From assembly GCA_021738385.1 (NCBI GenBank), contig JAIPCF010000005.1, positions 1 to 64,000 of the forward strand: 64,000 nt of DNA. Direction: 5' to 3'. Positions within the stretch are counted from its first letter, which is position 1, and the number at the start of each line of letters is the position of its first letter. The position numbers were made by a program, and so were the translations under genes. The notes below the pieces were generated by a model. That model was not told the DNA's origin, did not search any database, and saw nothing but the letters and a program-made list of their open reading frames with translations. The DNA is from Sulfuritalea sp. (GTDB taxonomy: Bacteria; Pseudomonadota; Gammaproteobacteria; Burkholderiales; Rhodocyclaceae). Of the stretch, positions 39,730-53,084 are shown in pieces.

Positions 39730-39813
39730 ACCACGGAGAGCACGGAGGACACAGAGAAAGGCGCACCTGCCTTTGTTTAGCTTTCTCCGTGCTCCCTGTG
39801 TACTCCGTGGCAG
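39730..39813. repeat. Palindromic ACAGAG/CTCTGT-type intergenic repeat (divergent copy)
   Basis: CACCACGGAGAGCACGGAGGACACAGAGAAAG...CTTTCTCCGTGCTCCCTGTGTACTCCGTGG. Confidence 0.85.
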
Positions 39814-42130: not shown

Positions 42131-42807
42131 TTGTGGCAGTCGCCATGACCGCTTTCGGCACTTCGAGGTTTATTCGACGTCTGCCCACGGGCGCCGTGCA
42201 TCATCCCTGCGTCATCACGTTCAGGGCGGACGTCCAACAAACCTTAACCAAAGTACGCGTTCGCAGAAATGGAGAGCCGACGTTCGTGCACCCTGGTTTC
42301 TATCGGGCCGGATGGCCGACGATTGACGTTTTCCCCTGGCATTCACAACCGCCAGATCGGGACTGTTCGATATCACGGACAGGGCTTGGCGGGTAACGCG
42401 GTAATACCCGACTGTCCATGTTCAATGAAGTCGGCGAATGCAGAAATAGATTTAACCATTCCGTAATCCTGACTATTAGTCTTATAGTTGACTTGTCACA
42501 AACACACGGGGCGCAACCTCGCCGCGAGTGTAGTCCTGAGTCGGCGCCAACGTGCTGGCTTCCCCTGCAGATCGGGAGCAACTCCTGACTGCGCCGTGAT
42601 GAGGTTGGTGGGTTCTGCTCTCAAGGCCTGAGCCCGTCGACCGAGTGTTTCCTGACCGTGTGTTGATCGGGCCGGGCTCCGGGCTATCCAGAGCCTCATC
42701 CCGATCAAGGCACGGCATGAAATCCATGACACTTAAAGGGTTTTGTGTTCCGTTCTGAAGTGAAAGGACACGGACCCGCATTAGAGGGGCAGGCGTTTGT
42801 GGGGTCG

Positions 42808-43677
42808 ATGACGGATCTGGCATTAGCGGGAGGATTCATGGCGGGGCTGGGCGTTGTCCTGGCATTGCTGCTCGCTTTTGCCAACAAGAAACTCTATGTG
42901 TATGAAGACCCGCGTATCGGCGAGGTCGAAGATCTGCTGCCCAAATCCAATTGCGGTGCCTGCGGTCAGGCGGGTTGCCGCGATTTTGCAGAGAAAGTGG
43001 TTGGCGGCGAAGTCGTGCCGGCGCTCTGTACGGTGAGTACGGTGCCGCAACGGCAGGGCATTGCCAATCTGCTCGGCGTGGCGGCCGGTACGGTGGAAAA
43101 GAAAGTCGCCCGACTGGCCTGCGGTGGCGGCCATCACGTGGCTTTTTTGCGCGCGCGTTATGAAGGTTTGAAAACCTGTCGCGCCGCGGCGGTAGTGTCG
43201 GGCGGCGGCAAGGAATGCGCCTGGGGTTGCCTCGGGCTGGCCGATTGCGCCAATGTCTGTACCTTTGATGCCATCACCATGGATGCCCACGGTTTGCCGG
43301 TGGTGGATAGCGAAAAATGTACGGCCTGCAACGACTGCGTCGAGGTTTGCCCCAAGGGTCTGTTCAGTCTCGAGCCGGTGAGCCACCGCCTGTGGATCGC
43401 CTGCAAGAACCAGGCAGACGGCGATACCGCCGAGGCCGCCTGCGAAGTGGCCTGCACCGCCTGCGGCAAGTGCGTTGCCGATTCGCCTTTCAAGCTGATG
43501 CAACTGGTCGGCAATCTGGCGGTGATCAATTACGACTGGAACGACCGTGCCACGCGCGCTCCCATAGAGCGCTGCCCGACCGGCGCCATCGTCTGGTTCG
43601 ACACACCCGACAGCGCGGCCAAAGGGGCTGCCGCCAAGAAAATCCTGCGCAACGATCCCTTGCCCATGCATCACTGA
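42808..43677 (+). CDS. rnfB: Rnf electron transport complex subunit B
   Basis: EVEDLLPKSNCGACGQAGCRDFAEKVVGG; CTACNDCVEVCPKGLF; TM N-terminus. Confidence 0.93.
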   Translation: MTDLALAGGFMAGLGVVLALLLAFANKKLYVYEDPRIGEVEDLLPKSNCGACGQAGCRDFAEKVVGGEVVPALCTVSTVPQRQGIANLLGVAAGTVEKKVARLACGGGHHVAFLRARYEGLKTCRAAAVVSGGGKECAWGCLGLADCANVCTFDAITMDAHGLPVVDSEKCTACNDCVEVCPKGLFSLEPVSHRLWIACKNQADGDTAEAACEVACTACGKCVADSPFKLMQLVGNLAVINYDWNDRATRAPIERCPTGAIVWFDTPDSAAKGAAAKKILRNDPLPMHH

Positions 43678-43709: not shown

Positions 43710-46700
43710 ATGTCAAAGTCACTCATCAAAAAACTGTTCTCGTATTCGCTGCTGGAGTCCGGCAGCGCCGGCCAGGCGACGAAGTCGGTCAAATACCCGG
43801 GCGTGCGCGAAGCGGTCGACGGCAATACCGCGATCATTCATGTCGAGCGCGAAGCGTCCGACGCGGCCGGTGCTTATCCGATCACGCCTTCGACACAGAT
43901 GGGCGAGTACTGGGCCGAAGAGGTTGCCGCCGGTCATCTCAATATCTCAGATCGTCCGCTGATTTTTATCGAGCCCGAATCCGAGCACGCGGCGGCCGGG
44001 GTCACGGCAGGCATGTCGATGGCGGGGCTGCGTGCGGTGAATTTCTCCTCGGGGCAGGGCGTGGCATTCATGCACGAGTCGCTCTACGCCGCTGTTGGCA
44101 AACGTCTGCCCTATGTGCTCAACATGGGTTGCCGCGCCATCACCAAGGCCTCGCTCAACGTGCATGCCGGCCACGACGACTACCACTGCGTCGACGATAC
44201 CGGCTTCATCCAGGTCATGGCCAAGAGCGCCACCGAGGCCGCCGACCTCAACCTGATCGCACGCAAGATTGCCGAGCTGTCGCTGACGCCGGCCATCATC
44301 GGCCAGGACGGTTTTCTCACCACCCATCTGATCGAGTCGGCGCTGCTACCGGAACGCGAACTGGTGGCCGAGTATCTCGGCAAGCCGGACGATCTGATCG
44401 ACACGCCGACGCCGGCGCAGGAAATGCTGTTCGGCTCGAAGCGCCGCCGCGTCCCGGCGATCTGGGATGTGGATGTGCCGGTAGTGTCGGGTACGGTGCA
44501 GAACCAGGACGCCTACATGCAGGCCACTGCCGGCCAGCGTCCGTACTTTTTCGATCACATCGAAGCCATTGCCGATACCTGCATGGACGAGTACGCCGGA
44601 CTGACCGGGCGGCGCTACCAGCGCGTTTCCACTTTCAAGGCGGAGGACGCCGACTACCTGATCGTCGGCATGGGCAGCATGATCGTGCAGGCCGAGGCGG
44701 TGGCCGACTATCTGCGCGAGACGCGCAAGCTGAAAGTCGGCGTGGTCAATGTGGTGATGTTCCGGCCATTCCCCGGCGATCTGCTGGGCCATGTGTTGCG
44801 TGGCAAGAAAGGTGTGGCCGTTCTGGAGCGCACCGACCAGCCGCTGGCGGAAGATCTGCCGCTGATACGTGAAATCCGCGCCTCGCTGATGAAGTGCGTC
44901 GAGAACGGCATGGCAGTGCCGGCCGGCCAGGACAAGGCCAAACCGTATCCGGATTACGCCAGCTATGGCGCCGGCGACATGCCGCGCCTGTACTCGGGCT
45001 GCTATGGCCTGGGCTCGCGTGATCTGCAACCCGAGGCGCTGATCGGCGCGGTGGAGAACATGCTGCCTGAGGCTGCCAATGCGGGAACGCAACGCAAGTT
45101 CTACTACCTGTCCGTCGATTTCGCCCGCGATCCGCTCAACCCGAAGGACGAGGTGCATCAGCAGGATATCGCCGACAAATATCCGCGCATTCGCGAGATG
45201 GGCGTGCGCGGTTCCGAAAATCCCAACCTGCTGCCCAAGGGCGCGATTACCGTGCGCATGCACTCGGTCGGCGGCTGGGGCGCCATCACCACCGGCAAGA
45301 ATCTGGCGATGACGCTGTTCGAGTTGCTCGGCTGGGACATCAAGGCCAATCCCAAATACGGCTCGGAGAAAAAAGGCCAGCCGACCACCTACTATCTGTC
45401 GGCAGCACCGGAGCCGATTCGCATCAACTGCGAATACACCTATGTCGATGTCGTGCTCTCGCCCGACCCGGCGGTGTTCGGCCACAGCAATCCGCTGTCC
45501 GGTCTGAAAAAAGGTGGCTATTTCATCATCCAGTCGAATCTGGGCAAGGAAACCTGGGCCAGCTTCCCGCTGTGGGCGCAGAAGTTCATTGTCGACAACG
45601 ACATTCACGTGTATTACCTCGACGCCTTCCAGATCGCTCGCGAAGAAGCCGGCGCCGCCGAGTTGCAGTTGCGCATGCAGGGCATCGCCTTTCAGGGCGC
45701 GTTCTTCGCCGCCAGCCCCACCATGGCGAACGCTGGCCTGACAGACGACGCACTGTTCACTGCCATCGAGGCTCAGTTGCAGTCGAAATTCGGCGGCAAG
45801 GGCGCGCGCGTGGTGGCCGACAATCTTCGCGTGGTGCGTCGCGGCTTTACCGAGCTGACGGAAATTACCGACAAGGAAGTCGGCCTCACACGCAAGGGAT
45901 TCGTCAAGAAGGATGCGGGTTTACCCATCATGCTGCGGCAATTGCCGACCGGCGACGAAGAGAAGATGAACAAGGCTGCCGACATCCATCGTTTCTGGGA
46001 GCAGACCGGCAACTTTTACATGACCGGCAAAGGCAGCGACAATCTGGTCGACCCCTTTATCGGAGCGTCTCTGCTGCCTGCTGCGACGGGTGTGTTCCGC
46101 GACATGACCGGCATTCGCTTTGAGCATCCGGTATGGATTGCGGAAAAGTGTACCGCCTGCGGCGACTGCTATACGGAGTGCCCGGATTCGGCGATTCCCG
46201 GTCTGGTCAGCTCGGTGGGTGATGTATTCAACACGGCGCTGAACCGTATCGAAACTTCCGGTACGCCGACGCGTTTCCTGCGCCGCGCGGTGCGCAGCGT
46301 GGAAAAGAAACTGCGCACCCTGATCGATCGTGACGGCGGCGCCGTGCGTCCGCTGATCGATATCGCCATTGATGAAGTCATCGCCGAGGCGCCGGACGCG
46401 GATCGCGGCGGGCTGGCGGCCGAGTTCACCGCCCTGCAGGTGCAGCTTGGCGGCTTCCAGTTTGCCGCCACCAAGCCCTACTGGGAGCAGAAGGAAAAGA
46501 AAGCCAGGAACAGTGGCGGTCTGTTCTCGATCACTGTCAATCCCTACACCTGCAAAGGCTGCAAGCTGTGCGTCACCGTCTGCGAAGACAACGCGCTGGA
46601 AATGGTGACGCAAACCGAGGAATCGGTGGATCGTCTGCGGCGCGACTGGAATGTCTGGCTGAACCTGCCGACCACACCCAGGGAATACAGCCGCATCGAC

Positions 46701-48686
46701 AGTCTCGACGAGAAGATCGGCGCGCTGGAAACCCTGCTGCTCGACAAGCACAACTACAACTCGATGAACTGCGGCGATGGCGCCTGTCTGGGTTGCGGCG
46801 AGAAGACCGCGATCCACTTGTTCACCGCTACGGTGACGGCGCTGATGCAGCCGCGCGTCAAGGTGTTTATCGACAAGCTCGATGGTTTGATCGCCAGTCT
46901 CGAACAGCACATGCGCGTCAAGCTGGCTTCGGCGGTTGATCTAACGGATACCGGCGCCGTGGTGCGCGCGGTCGAGTCGACCGGCCTGCACGACCTGACC
47001 TTGTCCACGCTGGCGACCAAGCTCAATGCCGACAAACCTTCGCAACTGCTCGACCCGGCCTGGGTAAAAAACACCGCGCAACTTCTGGAAAAGCTCAAGG
47101 ATCTCAAGTGGCGCTACGTCGAGGGGCCGACCAAGCGCGGGCGCGCCGAGATGGGCATCATCAACGCCACGGGTTGTACCTCGGTATGGGGTTCGACCTA
47201 TCCCTTCAGCCCCTATCCCTTCCCCTGGACCTCGCACCTGTTCCAGGATTCGCCTTCGGTGGCGATGGGCGTGTTCGAGGGTCACATGGCAAAGATGGCA
47301 GACGGATTCAAGGCCGTGCGCATGGCGGAAATGGAACTGGCGGGAGACTACCTGCCGGATCGGGATGAGGACTTCTTTCGGCGTTTCAACTGGAACCAGT
47401 TCTCCGCCGACGAATGGCTGTTGTGTCCGCCCGTGGTTTCCATGGGGGGCGACGGAGCGATGTACGACATCGGCTTCCAGAATCTGTCGCGCGTGTTGAT
47501 GTCCGGCATGCCGGTGAAGATTCTGGTGGTCGATACGCAGGTGTATTCCAACACCGGCGGCCAGGCCTGCACTTCGGGGTTCATCAGTCAGGTGTCGGAC
47601 ATGGCGCCCTTCGGATCCGCCCAGCGCGGCAAGCAGGAGACGCGCAAGGAGATCTCGCTGATCGGCATGGCGCACCGTACCTCCTACGTAATGCAAGGCA
47701 CCATTGCGCACGTCAATCATCTGCTCGAAAGCTATGTCGATGGCCTCAACAGCCGGCGGCCTGCACTATTCAACATCTACGCCGTGTGTCCCCCGGAGCA
47801 TGGTGTCGGCGATGACAAGAGCGTGGACCAAAGCAAGCTGGCGGTGGAAGGGCGCGCCTACCCCTTGTTCCGTTTCGATCCGGATGCCGGCACCACCTTC
47901 AGCGAATGCGTGAGCCTGGAAGGCAACCCGGCGCAGGACGACGACTGGCCCAGCTACACGCTCAAGTATGTGGATGAGGCCGGTGCCGAGCAGAGTATGA
48001 CGCTGCCGATGACCTTTGCCGACTTCGCTGCCACCGAAGCGCGCTTTCTCAAGCAGTTCCGCAAGGCGCCGCCCGAGACCTGGAACGAGCAGATGCTTTC
48101 CGTCGCCGAGTTTTTGCAACTCGACAAGGAGGAACGCGAAGGGCGCTTCCCCTTCATCTGGGGCGTGGACAAGAAGAACCGTTTGACGCGTCTGCTGGTG
48201 ACGGAAGACCTGGTTCGCTCGACCGAGGAGCGCCTGCACTTCTGGCGCCAGTTGCGCGACATTGCCGGGCTTGACGCCAATGCCGCCGATGCGGACGATG
48301 TAACCGAGCGGGTACGCACCGAGTTGCTGGCGAAGATCACTGCCAGCTTGGGATTGGCGGGTACAGGTGCCACCGTGGCTCCGGCGGTAAAAGTCGGCGC
48401 TGGTGAGACGGCTCCCGTAGCTTCTGCCGATGGCGATTACGAGCCGGTCTGGGTCGAATCACCCGAATGCACGGCCTGCGACGAGTGCATCAATCTGGCG
48501 CCGAAGACCTTCGCCTACAACGAGCAAAAGCTCGCCATCGTCATCAACCCGCAAGGCGCCAAGTTCGCCGATATCGTCAAGTCCGCCGAGAAGTGCACCG
48601 CCGGCTGCATCCATCCTGGAACGCCATGGAACATGAACGAGCCCGGCGTGGAAAAGTTGATCGCGCGTGCGGCGAAGTTCAATTGA
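43710..48686 (+). CDS. Large 2-oxoacid (pyruvate-type):ferredoxin oxidoreductase with extra C-terminal ferredoxin-like domain, about 1658 aa
   Basis: Alpha-type region (EASDAAGAYPITPSTQMGEYW), gamma-type region (HSVGGWGAITTGKNLAMTL), 2x[4Fe-4S] (CTACGDCYTECP, CKGCKLCVTVCE), TPP region (GDGACLGCGEKT, MGGDGAMYDIGFQNLSRVL), C-terminal CTACDECINLAPKTF...CTAGCIHPG; ATG 43710 (the ORF track extends upstream). Confidence 0.93.
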   Translation: MSKSLIKKLFSYSLLESGSAGQATKSVKYPGVREAVDGNTAIIHVEREASDAAGAYPITPSTQMGEYWAEEVAAGHLNISDRPLIFIEPESEHAAAGVTAGMSMAGLRAVNFSSGQGVAFMHESLYAAVGKRLPYVLNMGCRAITKASLNVHAGHDDYHCVDDTGFIQVMAKSATEAADLNLIARKIAELSLTPAIIGQDGFLTTHLIESALLPERELVAEYLGKPDDLIDTPTPAQEMLFGSKRRRVPAIWDVDVPVVSGTVQNQDAYMQATAGQRPYFFDHIEAIADTCMDEYAGLTGRRYQRVSTFKAEDADYLIVGMGSMIVQAEAVADYLRETRKLKVGVVNVVMFRPFPGDLLGHVLRGKKGVAVLERTDQPLAEDLPLIREIRASLMKCVENGMAVPAGQDKAKPYPDYASYGAGDMPRLYSGCYGLGSRDLQPEALIGAVENMLPEAANAGTQRKFYYLSVDFARDPLNPKDEVHQQDIADKYPRIREMGVRGSENPNLLPKGAITVRMHSVGGWGAITTGKNLAMTLFELLGWDIKANPKYGSEKKGQPTTYYLSAAPEPIRINCEYTYVDVVLSPDPAVFGHSNPLSGLKKGGYFIIQSNLGKETWASFPLWAQKFIVDNDIHVYYLDAFQIAREEAGAAELQLRMQGIAFQGAFFAASPTMANAGLTDDALFTAIEAQLQSKFGGKGARVVADNLRVVRRGFTELTEITDKEVGLTRKGFVKKDAGLPIMLRQLPTGDEEKMNKAADIHRFWEQTGNFYMTGKGSDNLVDPFIGASLLPAATGVFRDMTGIRFEHPVWIAEKCTACGDCYTECPDSAIPGLVSSVGDVFNTALNRIETSGTPTRFLRRAVRSVEKKLRTLIDRDGGAVRPLIDIAIDEVIAEAPDADRGGLAAEFTALQVQLGGFQFAATKPYWEQKEKKARNSGGLFSITVNPYTCKGCKLCVTVCEDNALEMVTQTEESVDRLRRDWNVWLNLPTTPREYSRIDSLDEKIGALETLLLDKHNYNSMNCGDGACLGCGEKTAIHLFTATVTALMQPRVKVFIDKLDGLIASLEQHMRVKLASAVDLTDTGAVVRAVESTGLHDLTLSTLATKLNADKPSQLLDPAWVKNTAQLLEKLKDLKWRYVEGPTKRGRAEMGIINATGCTSVWGSTYPFSPYPFPWTSHLFQDSPSVAMGVFEGHMAKMADGFKAVRMAEMELAGDYLPDRDEDFFRRFNWNQFSADEWLLCPPVVSMGGDGAMYDIGFQNLSRVLMSGMPVKILVVDTQVYSNTGGQACTSGFISQVSDMAPFGSAQRGKQETRKEISLIGMAHRTSYVMQGTIAHVNHLLESYVDGLNSRRPALFNIYAVCPPEHGVGDDKSVDQSKLAVEGRAYPLFRFDPDAGTTFSECVSLEGNPAQDDDWPSYTLKYVDEAGAEQSMTLPMTFADFAATEARFLKQFRKAPPETWNEQMLSVAEFLQLDKEEREGRFPFIWGVDKKNRLTRLLVTEDLVRSTEERLHFWRQLRDIAGLDANAADADDVTERVRTELLAKITASLGLAGTGATVAPAVKVGAGETAPVASADGDYEPVWVESPECTACDECINLAPKTFAYNEQKLAIVINPQGAKFADIVKSAEKCTAGCIHPGTPWNMNEPGVEKLIARAAKFN
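48387..48413 (+). repeat. Dispersed 27-bp repeat copy inside the POR gene linker
   Basis: GTAAAAGTCGGCGCTGGTGAGACGGCT; encodes (V)KVGAGETA. Confidence 0.8.
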
Positions 48687-48700
48687 TTGAAAAAACTGCC

Positions 48701-48786
48701 AACCACAGAGACACAGAGACACAGAGGAAAACCATGAGAATGATTTGTTTGCTTTTCTCTGTGTCTCTGTGTCTCTGTGGTGAAAG
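48701..48786. repeat. Palindromic ACAGAG/CTCTGT repeat between the POR gene and rnfC
   Basis: AACCACAGAGACACAGAGACACAGAGGAAAA...TTTTCTCTGTGTCTCTGTGTCTCTGTGGT. Confidence 0.95.
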
Positions 48787-48795
48787 GTTTTCGTT

Positions 48796-50175
48796 TTGAA
48801 ACTGCTTTCCTACTTCCGTGGCGGCGCTTTCCAGCGCGGCGTACATCCGCCGTCGTGCAAGCTGACGGCGGAGCGCGCGATCCGGCGCTTGCCATTTCCG
48901 CCGCGCGTGACGGTGCCGCTGTCGCAACATATCGGCAAGCTGCCGCGGCCCATCGTCAAGGTCGGGCAGGAGGTGTTGCGCGGCCAACCCATCGCCAAGA
49001 GCGACGACTGGCTCTCTGTGCCGCATCACGCGCCGCTGACCGGCGTGGTCGAATTCATCGGGCTGCGGCCGGGGATGCGCGGCACCTGGGTCGAGTCGAT
49101 TGTCATTCGCGCACATCCTGGGGCGACCCAGGAAGACTTGTGGGGAACTCCGCGCGATTTGTCGCAGGCTTTGAGTGGCGACATCCTGCAGGCTATCTGG
49201 GACACCGGCATGGTGGGTCTGGGCGGTGCGGCCTTTCCGACGCACGCCAAGCTTTCCGTGCCGAAGCAGGCCAAGGTGCACACGCTGGTAGTGAATGGTT
49301 GCGAGTGCGAGCCCTACCTGACTTGCGATCACCGTGTCATGCTGGAGCAGGCCGACGATCTGCTTGTGGGCATCCGCTATGCCATGCGTGCTACCGGTGC
49401 GGTGCGCGCCATCATTGGCGTCGAGGACAACAAACGCGATGCGGTCGCGGTACTGCGTCAGACCATCGCGCGGGCCATCGAAGGCGGCGGCTTTAACGAA
49501 GGCGAGATTCACGTTGAAGCGGTGCCGACCCTGTATCCGCAAGGTTCGGAGAAGATGCTGATCATGGCGTTGTTCGGTGCCGAGATGCCGGCCGGCGGTT
49601 TGCCGATCGCGCTGGGCATGGTGGTCAGCAATGTCGGCACGCTGGCCGCACTGGGCAAACTGCTGCCGGCCGGGCAGGGCCTCACCGAACGGGTAGTAAC
49701 AGTCACCGGCTCCGGCGTGGCGCGGCCGGGCGACTACCGGGTGGTGCTGGGTACGCCGCTCAAGTTCGTGCTCGACTATGCCGGGGCGCCGGCGGTGGAT
49801 GAGATGGATGCGCGGCAAGTGATTCTCGGCGGGCCGATGATGGGCCAGGCCATCGGCTCGCTCGAGGTGCCGATCACCAAGGGCGTCTCCGGCGTGCTGG
49901 TCTTTCGCCGCGAGGACATGCAAGAGCGCGAAGGCCGCCAGACCTATCCCTGCATCAAATGTGGCGAGTGCGTCGAGTCCTGCCCGATGGGCCTGAACCC
50001 TTCGACCCTGGGCATGCTCGCCGCCAAGCGCGAATATGAGTTGATGGGCGAACGCTATTTCCTCAGCGACTGCTTCGAGTGCGGCTGCTGCACCTACGTA
50101 TGTCCATCGAATATTCCTCTGGTGCAACAGTTCCGTGTCGCCAAGCAGATTTTGCGGGAAAAGGCGGCTGCTTGA
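48796..50175 (+). CDS. rnfC: Rnf complex subunit C
   Basis: FRGGAFQRGVHPPSCK; CIKCGECVESCPMGLNPSTLG; CFECGCCTYVCPSNIPLVQQFRVAK; apparent TTG start. Confidence 0.94.
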   Translation: MKLLSYFRGGAFQRGVHPPSCKLTAERAIRRLPFPPRVTVPLSQHIGKLPRPIVKVGQEVLRGQPIAKSDDWLSVPHHAPLTGVVEFIGLRPGMRGTWVESIVIRAHPGATQEDLWGTPRDLSQALSGDILQAIWDTGMVGLGGAAFPTHAKLSVPKQAKVHTLVVNGCECEPYLTCDHRVMLEQADDLLVGIRYAMRATGAVRAIIGVEDNKRDAVAVLRQTIARAIEGGGFNEGEIHVEAVPTLYPQGSEKMLIMALFGAEMPAGGLPIALGMVVSNVGTLAALGKLLPAGQGLTERVVTVTGSGVARPGDYRVVLGTPLKFVLDYAGAPAVDEMDARQVILGGPMMGQAIGSLEVPITKGVSGVLVFRREDMQEREGRQTYPCIKCGECVESCPMGLNPSTLGMLAAKREYELMGERYFLSDCFECGCCTYVCPSNIPLVQQFRVAKQILREKAAA

Positions 50176-50181
50176 CACCAT

Positions 50182-50272
50182 GAACCACAGAGACACAGAG
50201 ACACAGAGGAAAAACATCGAGAGGGAAGAGAATTGCTTTTCTCTGTGTCTCTGTGTCTCTGTGGTAAAGGTT
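50182..50272. repeat. Palindromic ACAGAG/CTCTGT repeat between rnfC and rnfD
   Basis: GAACCACAGAGACACAGAGACACAGAGGAAAAA...TTTTCTCTGTGTCTCTGTGTCTCTGTGGT. Confidence 0.95.
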
Positions 50273-50277
50273 TTTCA

Positions 50278-51429
50278 ATGACCCAGCCGCTTATCGAGAT
50301 CCGTTCCGCGCCGCACCTCAAGGCGGCGAAGAGTGTCGAGACCATCATGCGGCATGTGGTGTATTCGCTGTTGCCGATCTGCGCTTTCTATATATTTCAG
50401 TACGGCATTTCGGCGCTGGCGTCGATTCTTGTCGTCACGATAGCCTGCCTGCTCACCGAGCGCGCACTGATCAGTACCGGGACGCAGGCCGGGCGGCTGT
50501 CCGATTTCTCCGCCGTGATCACCGGTCTGCTGCTGGCGCTGACCCTGCCGCCGGGCTTTCCCTTGTGGATGGGCGCGGTGGCCGGCGTGGTTGCCATCGC
50601 GCTGGGCAAGGCGCTGTTCGGCGGCATCGGCTTCAATGTCTTCAATCCGGCGCTGGTCGGCCGCGCCTTTGTCCAGGCCGCTTTCCCCACCGCCATTGCG
50701 ACCTACACGCCGTCTTTTCTCGCGGGCCGCTTTACCGAGTTCATTCCTTCGTCGCTGGCCTTGCCGCTGATGATCCCCGCCGGAGCCGCCGAGTGGCTCA
50801 AGGCAAAACAGTTCGATGCGCTGGCGGGCGCCACGCCGCTGGCGAAATGGAAGTTCGACGGCGTGGTGGTCAATGCCGATGAATTGCTGACCTCGCTCTC
50901 CGGCCACATGGCGGTGGGACCGGCGCCGGCGCTGATCCTGTTGTGCGGCGCCTATCTGGCTGCGCGCCGTTTCATGGACTGGCGCATTCCGGTAGCGATA
51001 CTCGGCAGCGCCGCGCTGACGGCATGGCTGCTGTTCGCCATCGATCCCGGTCGTTACCCGAATCCGTTCTTCATGCTGTTTTCCGGCGGTCTGATTCTCG
51101 GCGCGGTGTATATGGCCACCGACATGGCCACCTCGCCGGTCACGCCCAAAGGCATGTGGGTGTATGGCGCACTGATCGGCTTGCTGACCGTGGTGATCCG
51201 CTACTACAGCGGCCTGCCCGAGGGGGTGATGTATGCCATCCTGATCGGCAATGCCGCCTCGCCATTGATCGAACGCATCACCCAGCCGACGCCTTTTGGT
51301 CGCGGCGTGAGCTTGGGACGCACGCGCAAACGCGCCAGTTATCCGCTGAATCCGGGTTACATCTCGCGCGAAGAAGCGGGTGCCGTAACGCCGAAGAAAC
51401 GCTTCCTGCCGAGGAAGCCGAAGAAATGA
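50278..51429 (+). CDS. rnfD: Rnf complex subunit D
   Basis: Membrane protein; SFLAGRFTEFIPSSLALPLM; TDMATSPVTPKGMWVYGALIGLLTVVIRYYSGLPEGVMYAILIGNAASPLIERIT. Confidence 0.94.
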   Translation: MTQPLIEIRSAPHLKAAKSVETIMRHVVYSLLPICAFYIFQYGISALASILVVTIACLLTERALISTGTQAGRLSDFSAVITGLLLALTLPPGFPLWMGAVAGVVAIALGKALFGGIGFNVFNPALVGRAFVQAAFPTAIATYTPSFLAGRFTEFIPSSLALPLMIPAGAAEWLKAKQFDALAGATPLAKWKFDGVVVNADELLTSLSGHMAVGPAPALILLCGAYLAARRFMDWRIPVAILGSAALTAWLLFAIDPGRYPNPFFMLFSGGLILGAVYMATDMATSPVTPKGMWVYGALIGLLTVVIRYYSGLPEGVMYAILIGNAASPLIERITQPTPFGRGVSLGRTRKRASYPLNPGYISREEAGAVTPKKRFLPRKPKK

Positions 51430-51439
51430 TGAACATCTT

Positions 51440-51570
51440 TTCACCACAGAGCGCCTTGCGTGCCTGGAATTCCGCTTCGCGGGCTGGCAACAGAGACACA
51501 GAGACACAGAGAACTTCAAAGGCAAAAGTCAGTTTTTGTCTTTCTCTGTGCCTCTGTGTCTCTGTGGTTC
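51440..51570. repeat. Palindromic ACAGAG/CTCTGT repeat with a nested 38-bp hairpin repeat, between rnfD and rnfG
   Basis: TCACCACAGAG[CGCCTTGCGTGCCTGGAATTCCGCTTCGCGGGCTGGCAA]CAGAGACACAGAG...CTCTGTGCCTCTGTGTCTCTGTGG. Confidence 0.93.
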
Positions 51571-51586
51571 AAACGGGGTTTGCATC

Positions 51587-52309
51587 ATGACCGATCAGCG
51601 CGTGATACCGGTCAAGCATGTGCCGCCTCCACCGCCGGCCTCGCCGACGGTTGGCATGATCCGCACCCTGGGACTGGTCTCCGCGATATGCGGTCTTATC
51701 ATTGTCAGCGCCTATCAGAGCACCTACGACGCCGTGGCGGCCAACAAGCGCATTGCCACCGAGCGCGCAGTCTTCAAGGTGATCCCGGCGGCGAAGTCGA
51801 TTGTCGAATATGCAGCCCTGCCTAACGGCGGCATACAAAAACTCGGCGCTGGTGACACGGCAACGCCATCGGGTGCCGTCGGATTTTTTGCCGCCTACGA
51901 CGAGCATGGTCGGCTCGCCGGTATCGCCGCCGAGGGGGGCGCCAAGGGATACGCCGACACCGTTCGCATCATGTTCGGTTACTCGCCGGCCTGCCAGTGC
52001 GTGGTGGGTTTTGGCGTGGTCGCGATGCGCGAAACGCCGGGCATCGGCGACAAGATCATCAAAGACCGCGAGTTTCTCGCCAACTTTGCCGCACTCGACG
52101 TCAAGCTCACGGCCGACCTGTCGGCACTGGCCAACGAAGTGATGGCGGTCAAGCACGGCACCAAGAGCAACCCCTGGCAGATCGATGCCATTGCCGGCGC
52201 CACCATCACCTCGCGCGCCGTCGGCCGCGCCATCAACGATGCGGCACAGGCCTTGCTGCCGCGCCTTGTTCCCAAACTCGAAATCCTTCAAAAGGCCCAA
52301 AAATCATGA
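51587..52309 (+). CDS. rnfG: Rnf complex subunit G
   Basis: Single TM then FMN-binding-like region; C-terminal ...AIAGATITSRAVGRAINDAAQ (SGATxT-type flavinylation motif). Confidence 0.93.
   Translation: MTDQRVIPVKHVPPPPPASPTVGMIRTLGLVSAICGLIIVSAYQSTYDAVAANKRIATERAVFKVIPAAKSIVEYAALPNGGIQKLGAGDTATPSGAVGFFAAYDEHGRLAGIAAEGGAKGYADTVRIMFGYSPACQCVVGFGVVAMRETPGIGDKIIKDREFLANFAALDVKLTADLSALANEVMAVKHGTKSNPWQIDAIAGATITSRAVGRAINDAAQALLPRLVPKLEILQKAQKS
51836..51861 (+). repeat. Dispersed 27-bp repeat copy inside rnfG
   Basis: CAAAAACTCGGCGCTGGTGACACGGCA; encodes KLGAGDTA. Confidence 0.8.
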
Positions 52310-52431
52310 ACCACAGAGCGCCTTGCGTGCCTGGAATTCCGCTTCGCGGCCAGGCAACAGAGACACAGAGGAAAACCGGGAGAGAAGTGGCCTTGAGTTT
52401 CTCTGTGCCTCTGTGTCTCTGTGGTGAAAGG
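52308..52431. repeat. Palindromic ACAGAG/CTCTGT repeat with a nested hairpin repeat, between rnfG and rnfE
   Basis: GAACCACAGAG[CGCCTTGCGTGCCTGGAATTCCGCTTCGCGGCCAGGCAA]CAGAGACACAGAGG...CTCTGTGCCTCTGTGTCTCTGTGGT. Confidence 0.93.
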
Positions 52432-52439
52432 TTTTCACT

Positions 52440-53084
52440 ATGAGTGCCACTGTCACTTGGGATGAATTCACCGAAGGCATCTGGCGCCAGAACCCGGTGT
52501 TCGTCATGGTGCTGGGTCTGTGCCCGATGCTGGCGGTGACCGTTTCCGCGGTGAACGCCATGACCATGGGGTTGGCCACGATGTTCGTGCTGGTCTGCTC
52601 CAGCGCTCTGGTGTCGCTGATGCGCAAGATGGTGCCGAAAGAAGTGCGCATCGCCACCTATATCGTGATCATCGCCACCTTCGTCACCGTGGTCGATTAC
52701 CTCATTCAGGCGGTGAGCCTGGAGTTGTACGAAGCCTTGGGGGCGTTCATCCAGTTGATCGTGGTGAATTGCATCATCCTCGGCCGGGCCGAGGCGCATG
52801 CCTCGAAGAATCCGCCGCTCCCCGCCATGATCAACGCACTGGGCATGAGTATCGGCTTTTTCATCGGCCTGTTCGCGCTGGGTTCGGTGCGAGAAATTCT
52901 CGGTGCCGGCACCCTGTTCGGCGTCTCGTTGTTCGGCTCGGGCTTCCAGCCCTGGGTGATCATGGTGCTGCCGCCCGGCGGCTTTTTCGTGCTTGGCGGC
53001 TGGTTGCTGTTCTTTTCCTGGATGGGGCGCAGAAAGCAGCGCAAGCAGACGGAAAAACTCGCGGGAGTGAGCGGCCATGCATGA
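52440..53084 (+). CDS. rnfE: Rnf complex subunit E
   Basis: MSATVTWDEFTEGIWRQNPVFVMVLGLCPMLAVTVSAVNAMTMGLATMFVL. Confidence 0.95.
   Translation: MSATVTWDEFTEGIWRQNPVFVMVLGLCPMLAVTVSAVNAMTMGLATMFVLVCSSALVSLMRKMVPKEVRIATYIVIIATFVTVVDYLIQAVSLELYEALGAFIQLIVVNCIILGRAEAHASKNPPLPAMINALGMSIGFFIGLFALGSVREILGAGTLFGVSLFGSGFQPWVIMVLPPGGFFVLGGWLLFFSWMGRRKQRKQTEKLAGVSGHA

Follow-up and report, generated by a model that had tools for sequence, protein, structure and literature searches.

Palindromic repeats at consecutive junctions of the rnf operon

The window, by which we mean the whole stretch of 64,000 nucleotides analysed here (contig JAIPCF010000005.1 of a Sulfuritalea sp. draft genome), carries an rnf operon on its forward strand. 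Genes of the operon were identified with Pfam and NCBIfam profiles, and their start codons are predictions. They comprise an rnfB-like gene with FeS and Fer4 domains (42745–43677), a pyruvate:ferredoxin oxidoreductase-like gene (POR; 43710–48686), rnfC (48796–50175; TIGR01945; predicted TTG start), rnfD (50278–51429; TIGR01946), rnfG (51587–52309; FMN_bind, with a TIGR01947 score under its cut-off) and rnfE (52440–53084; TIGR01948).

The original prediction placed a palindrome in every gap from POR to rnfE, and all four were found at the predicted positions. These near-perfect palindromes have CACAGAG arms of up to three tandem octamers (CCACAGAG-ACACAGAG-ACACAGAG) and loops of ~30 bp, and they occupy the POR–rnfC (palindrome 1, 48703–48780), rnfC–rnfD (palindrome 2, 50185–50264), rnfD–rnfG (palindrome 3, 51444–51567) and rnfG–rnfE gaps (palindrome 4, 52311–52424). 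The rnfB/POR gap is without a repeat, and rnfE and rnfA overlap. The rnfC TTG, said to follow directly on a repeat, is at 48796, 15 bp past palindrome 1, and the divergent copy expected at 39730 is present at 39731–39810 as a sister palindrome with CACGGAG arms between convergent genes; CACGGCG sister palindromes occur elsewhere in the genome. Predicted RNA folds of the palindromes are very stable hairpins (–50 to –58 kcal/mol, z –4.4 to –9.8; –58.2 kcal/mol for palindrome 1).

Palindromes 3 and 4 carry ~37 bp extra in their left arm, which is split by a nested repeat, TGCCTGGAATTCCGCTTCGCGG (51452–51489 and 52319–52356), that has ~30 copies of its own (≤3 mismatches), one of them near position 14315 of contig C111. 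The nested repeat sits at the identical arm point in these two neighbouring CACAGAG copies whose loops differ, which suggests that arms and loops were exchanged separately. In genome G010, palindrome 4 is without the nested repeat and the loop of palindrome 2 is inverted; the latter loop is identical in G014.

Reading frames across the inserts

Each of the four inserts is spanned by a forward-strand ORF that links the flanking genes. Linker ORF 1 (48683–48799; 38 codons) opens with a TTG overlapping the POR stop and its stop overlaps the rnfC TTG, and linker ORF 2 (50180–50281; 33 codons) opens with an ATG 4 bp past the rnfC stop and ends at a stop overlapping the rnfD ATG. Linker ORFs 3 (51426–51590; 54 codons) and 4 (52306–52443; 45 codons) both open at an ATGA that overlaps the upstream stop, of rnfD and rnfG respectively, and their stops overlap the ATG of rnfG and rnfE.

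In the filled rnf gaps, the insert was spanned in 21/21 cases by an ORF 31 to 66 codons long, and the stop of this ORF overlapped the next start (NTGA, –4 spacing) in 20/21. When one or two bases were put into the middle of each insert and the overlap was rescored, stop–start overlaps dropped from 20 to 6 (+1) and 1 (+2). The repeat arms have no stops in any of the six frames, a property that eases open frames and is covered by this shift control. Most linker ORFs had their first start at –4, in an NTGA overlapping the upstream stop, including those of all 12 ftsW–murG inserts; the latter were linked in 12/12, from ATGA to ATGA (or from a TTGA/GTGA start), two of them by chains of two ORFs. 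Exact linkage was found in 2/2 inserts at ftsQ/ftsA, 1/3 at murG/murC, 1/2 at ivd/mccA and 0/2 at mccB/ivd. Length differences between related inserts were mostly multiples of three (157/157/157/148; 120/123; 130/94; 102/102), with one exception (102/110).

Overall, exact linkage among 43 curated inserts was seen in 36 in the real frame compared to 9 (+1) and 8 (+2) after shifting (binomial p ~3e-7 under an assumption of independence that related inserts violate). By eye, the 43 represent about 20 junction-by-family combinations, so the result does not depend on a few inherited events. They come from three operons including rnf, with the curation decided after the sequences had been seen; ivd/mccA pairs with a whole extra gene between them, nuo inserts, and the murC–murB, ddlB–ftsQ and G007 ivd–mccA junctions, which have uncertain starts, stand outside the set. 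Several candidates were rejected: the '95 bp' murD–ftsW gaps were mis-called starts, supposed ftsA–ftsZ inserts were broken ftsA ends, and the G044 and G041 ivd–mccA inserts, also outside the 43, resemble in-frame inserts inside mccA. G021 murD–ftsW was scored as a miss (start 4 bp off) and is linked when read by hand. Exact overlap was missing in six curated inserts (rnfC–rnfD of G010; murG–murC of our genome and of G016; mccB–ivd and ivd–mccA of our genome; mccB–ivd of G044), and in most of these the ORF ends within 15 nt.

Across the nuo operons of 20 congeners, where junctions are mostly non-overlapping and have their own spacing, inserts were rare and exact linkage was 0/7. Thus, linkage is no general property of inserts; it tracks the native coupling of the junction, which fits selection preserving that coupling. 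Outside rnf, coupling within 15 nt was observed for 14 short elements of the genus vs 6 and 8 in the shifted frames, for 5 long elements vs 3 and 1, and for 17 elements of other phyla vs 4 and 6. This signal, pooled over the genus and other phyla (36/64, p = 0.00014), was weaker than at rnf, with just 17/66 coupled in other phyla. An independent shuffle of halves gave p = 0.002 and 0.004 (the genus set includes the rnf copies).

A Shine-Dalgarno-like AAAGG lies on the forward strand outside palindromes 1 (48783–48787, for rnfC), 2 (50266–50270, for rnfD) and 4 (52427–52431, for rnfE). Within 14 nt outside the palindrome, AAAGG was enriched on the start side (10/43 vs 1/43 on the stop side in the genus; 6/99 vs 0/99 in other phyla), which would agree with a smaller share of copies using the element edge as a ribosome-binding site.

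Empty and filled junctions in related genomes

The same rnf junctions in 19 congeners either had no insert, with genes 0 to 11 bp apart or overlapping by ATGA, or were occupied by other palindrome families. In congeners without inserts, rnfC and rnfD were 0 bp apart (TGA ATG), rnfG/rnfE frequently overlapped by ATGA, and POR and rnfC were separated by 4–11 bp. Unrelated palindromes at filled junctions were of the TCCGCAGATTTCGCAGATT, CCCGCCCC/GGCGGAGG, GTCATTCCGG, TTCGACAGG and GGGCGGC types, and the proteins downstream of filled junctions were intact. The repeats are thus no constant part of the rnf operon among close relatives. A similar variety was seen at ftsW/murG, where eight genomes had the native ATGA overlap and 12 had inserts, drawn from five or more palindrome families. 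NTGA was present at both insert ends in 5/5 rnfG–rnfE and 12/12 ftsW–murG inserts, compared to a single NTGA at the native junctions. One gap held a CACGGCG palindrome in one species (L036, 51–127) and a CACAGAG palindrome in another (L224, 3989).

Genomic distribution and mobility of the repeats

The 3.34 Mb draft genome has ~27 CACAGAG copies, nearly all intergenic. Pattern matches numbered 23 + 21, compared to 0 for a reversed-pattern control; together with the stable folds, this places the repeats beyond chance. Copies were clustered, with 9 pairs ≤4 kb apart vs 0.83 expected at random. Among 31 congeners, CACAGAG arm matches ranged from 0 to 39 per strand (the reversed-pattern control was essentially empty), and the family was sporadic in the class (5/274 sampled genomes) and also occurred in Planctomycetota, Acidobacteriota, Alphaproteobacteria and others. 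These patchy counts and the scatter over several phyla indicate that the family is mobile; judged by comparison of genomes, it is a mobile element and no rnf-specific regulator.

At 116 loci from other organisms, several phyla among them, same-strand gaps held 99/111 copies vs a background of 386/516, and divergent gaps 4/111 vs 73/516. The proposed placement between co-transcribed genes is thus non-random, and the random spread over intergenic regions that the original prediction had named as evidence against a role was not what we found. Copies also favoured tight gaps: the residual gap beside the palindrome had a median of 43 bp, whereas just 3.4% of same-strand intergenic sequence is in gaps ≤40 bp; the median distance from the upstream stop to the palindrome was 18 bp. 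In the genus, short elements with intact double arms were in same-strand gaps in 29/29 cases, and long 133-bp elements were less choosy about gap orientation; a same-strand enrichment of all genus elements pooled was discarded (62/78 vs 392/488, no excess). Only 1 of 84 complete elements was within a called gene, so these are dispersed extragenic palindromes.

Loops at orthologous sites were the same in 6 cases, inverted in 3 and different in ~6, with arms unchanged, which suggests recombination or template switching between the arms. The inversions between species at a single site left the flanks unchanged (L047, 6389 vs L239, 3937; position 50185 of the window vs L193; L038, 10014 vs L266, 1015). 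The 133-bp relative, which has a conserved loop, is abundant in G021 (L249–L268) and G014 (L209–L242), and in one congener several of its copies lie at contig ends, as expected of recent identical copies.

Searches gave no parent transposase, no blastn match of the repeat to plasmids or phages (possibly owing to low-complexity filtering), and no Rfam match above the gathering score, with only sub-threshold matches to miRNA hairpins. Flanks showed no general target-site duplication, NTGA being doubled at overlapping junctions only; a candidate 4-bp TGAA/TTCA duplication was rejected, as asymmetric element ends account for the flank pattern.

Explanations for the linked inserts

The strongest signal in these comparisons is the preserved frame with its stop–start overlap, rather than mRNA processing or stoichiometry. 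We regard the repeats as probably being mobile palindromes that are kept at operon junctions as MIRU-like translated linkers preserving stop–start coupling. A mobile palindromic element would insert at or beside an operon stop/start junction and would persist if it left one open frame through the insert. A ribosome finishing the upstream gene would then re-initiate at the NTGA overlap or a few codons away, read through the hairpin along a linker of 31 to 66 codons and terminate where an NTGA overlaps the next start; in some copies the outer edge may add the AAAGG. By this proposal, translation of the linker up to the NTGA would keep the genes translationally coupled and open the hairpin without polarity, and the linking frame with its overlaps would let such DNA invade operons without breaking them. 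Translation of the linker, coupling as the selected trait and insertion targeted to junctions, as opposed to filtering by selection alone, are all inferred. More tentatively, the unrelated palindrome families could share a route of mobility that targets operon DTGA overlaps and duplicates them, such that insertions would arrive pre-coupled; if so, repeats of this kind would make up a general class that invades operons outside mycobacteria.

Ordinary selfish REP- or MITE-like insertions, tolerated in non-coding gaps with incidental linkage and minor effects on mRNA, would agree with the patchy copy number among congeners, the rarity in the class and the presence in many phyla, as well as with the nearness of the upstream stop, a position reported for REPs generally (PMC3733652). 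We consider this unlikely, since the linking frame was strongly over-represented relative to both the frame-shift and shuffle controls and the inserts occupy junctions that formerly had no spacer at all. Still less probable is the earlier proposal that the hairpins act in mRNA processing or stability and so give the rnf subunits unequal levels: in most congeners these junctions carry an unrelated hairpin or none, this element is also present in many unrelated operons (e.g. dcw and mcc), and ribosomes would open the hairpin if the linker is translated. That proposal does draw on the very stable RNA hairpins between co-transcribed genes, on the retention of arms while loops are swapped or inverted at one site, and on the first description of REPs as intercistronic elements (Higgins 1982, cited in PMC12306157).

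Movement of REP-like elements by a host RAYT (Y1_Tnp) transposase is compatible with translated linkers and seems similarly improbable. Two Y1_Tnp genes are present in the genome, and a link of palindromic repeats to RAYTs is frequent (PMC2817692), but both genes have TTAAAGGGGTCAGCAT repeats rather than CACAGAG on their flanks, and the other loci examined yielded no ORF resembling these RAYTs. These RAYT-like genes (L031 and L032; C115:12073 and C47:9815) with their TTAAAGGGGTCAGCAT flanks probably belong to a separate REP system.

Comparison with known elements

A literature search found nothing relevant on this exact repeat or on its peptide. The closest precedent is the mycobacterial MIRU (Supply 1997), which a review (PMC12548453) describes as mobile short repeats at start codons with an internal ORF whose coupling to the next gene is at –4 nt, a design read there as allowing insertion with little effect on expression. 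Mobility, an internal ORF and –4 nt spacing to the downstream start are shared with the repeats described here, in most of which the ORF overlaps both the upstream stop and the downstream start with NTGA at both ends; the likeness is one of description, and the repeats are not claimed as MIRU. MIRU differ in host, whereas the repeats here have the form of long inverted repeats, their arms built of tandem octamers, and within a single genus several unrelated families show the same behaviour. Linker behaviour thus has a MIRU precedent, and the families, hosts, palindromic form and multi-family convergence are new as far as the searched literature shows. The linker reading would extend this behaviour to a phylum other than that of the mycobacteria and to several palindrome families there, and would give a simple, testable reason why repeats can occupy even the narrowest gaps in essential operons (e.g. 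ftsW/murG) without being purged. It suggests that selection may maintain translational coupling over natural insertions, and that some small 'hypothetical proteins' of the TETQRHRE type could be real translated linkers.

REP, BIME and REPIN elements with their RAYT are likewise extragenic palindromes scattered through genomes, for the most part close to upstream stops in gaps between same-strand or convergent genes; unlike them, the repeats here have tandem-octamer arms, no GTAG/CGTC tag that we could see and no RAYT found, and they link reading frames. The Chunjie MITE of Geobacter is reported (cited in PMC10969869) to insert in an operon without disturbance, a point of likeness, but it is longer and has its own terminal repeats. 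Rickettsia palindromic elements (RPE; PMC10969869) are also kept in frame with translation; they lie inside genes as protein inserts, whereas the repeats here lie between genes as separate small ORFs. A few congener inserts appear to be RPE-like exceptions in rnfG and mccA: repeats at the rnfG start in L202 and L196 and at the mccA start in L315 resemble in-frame insertions in the N-terminal coding part.
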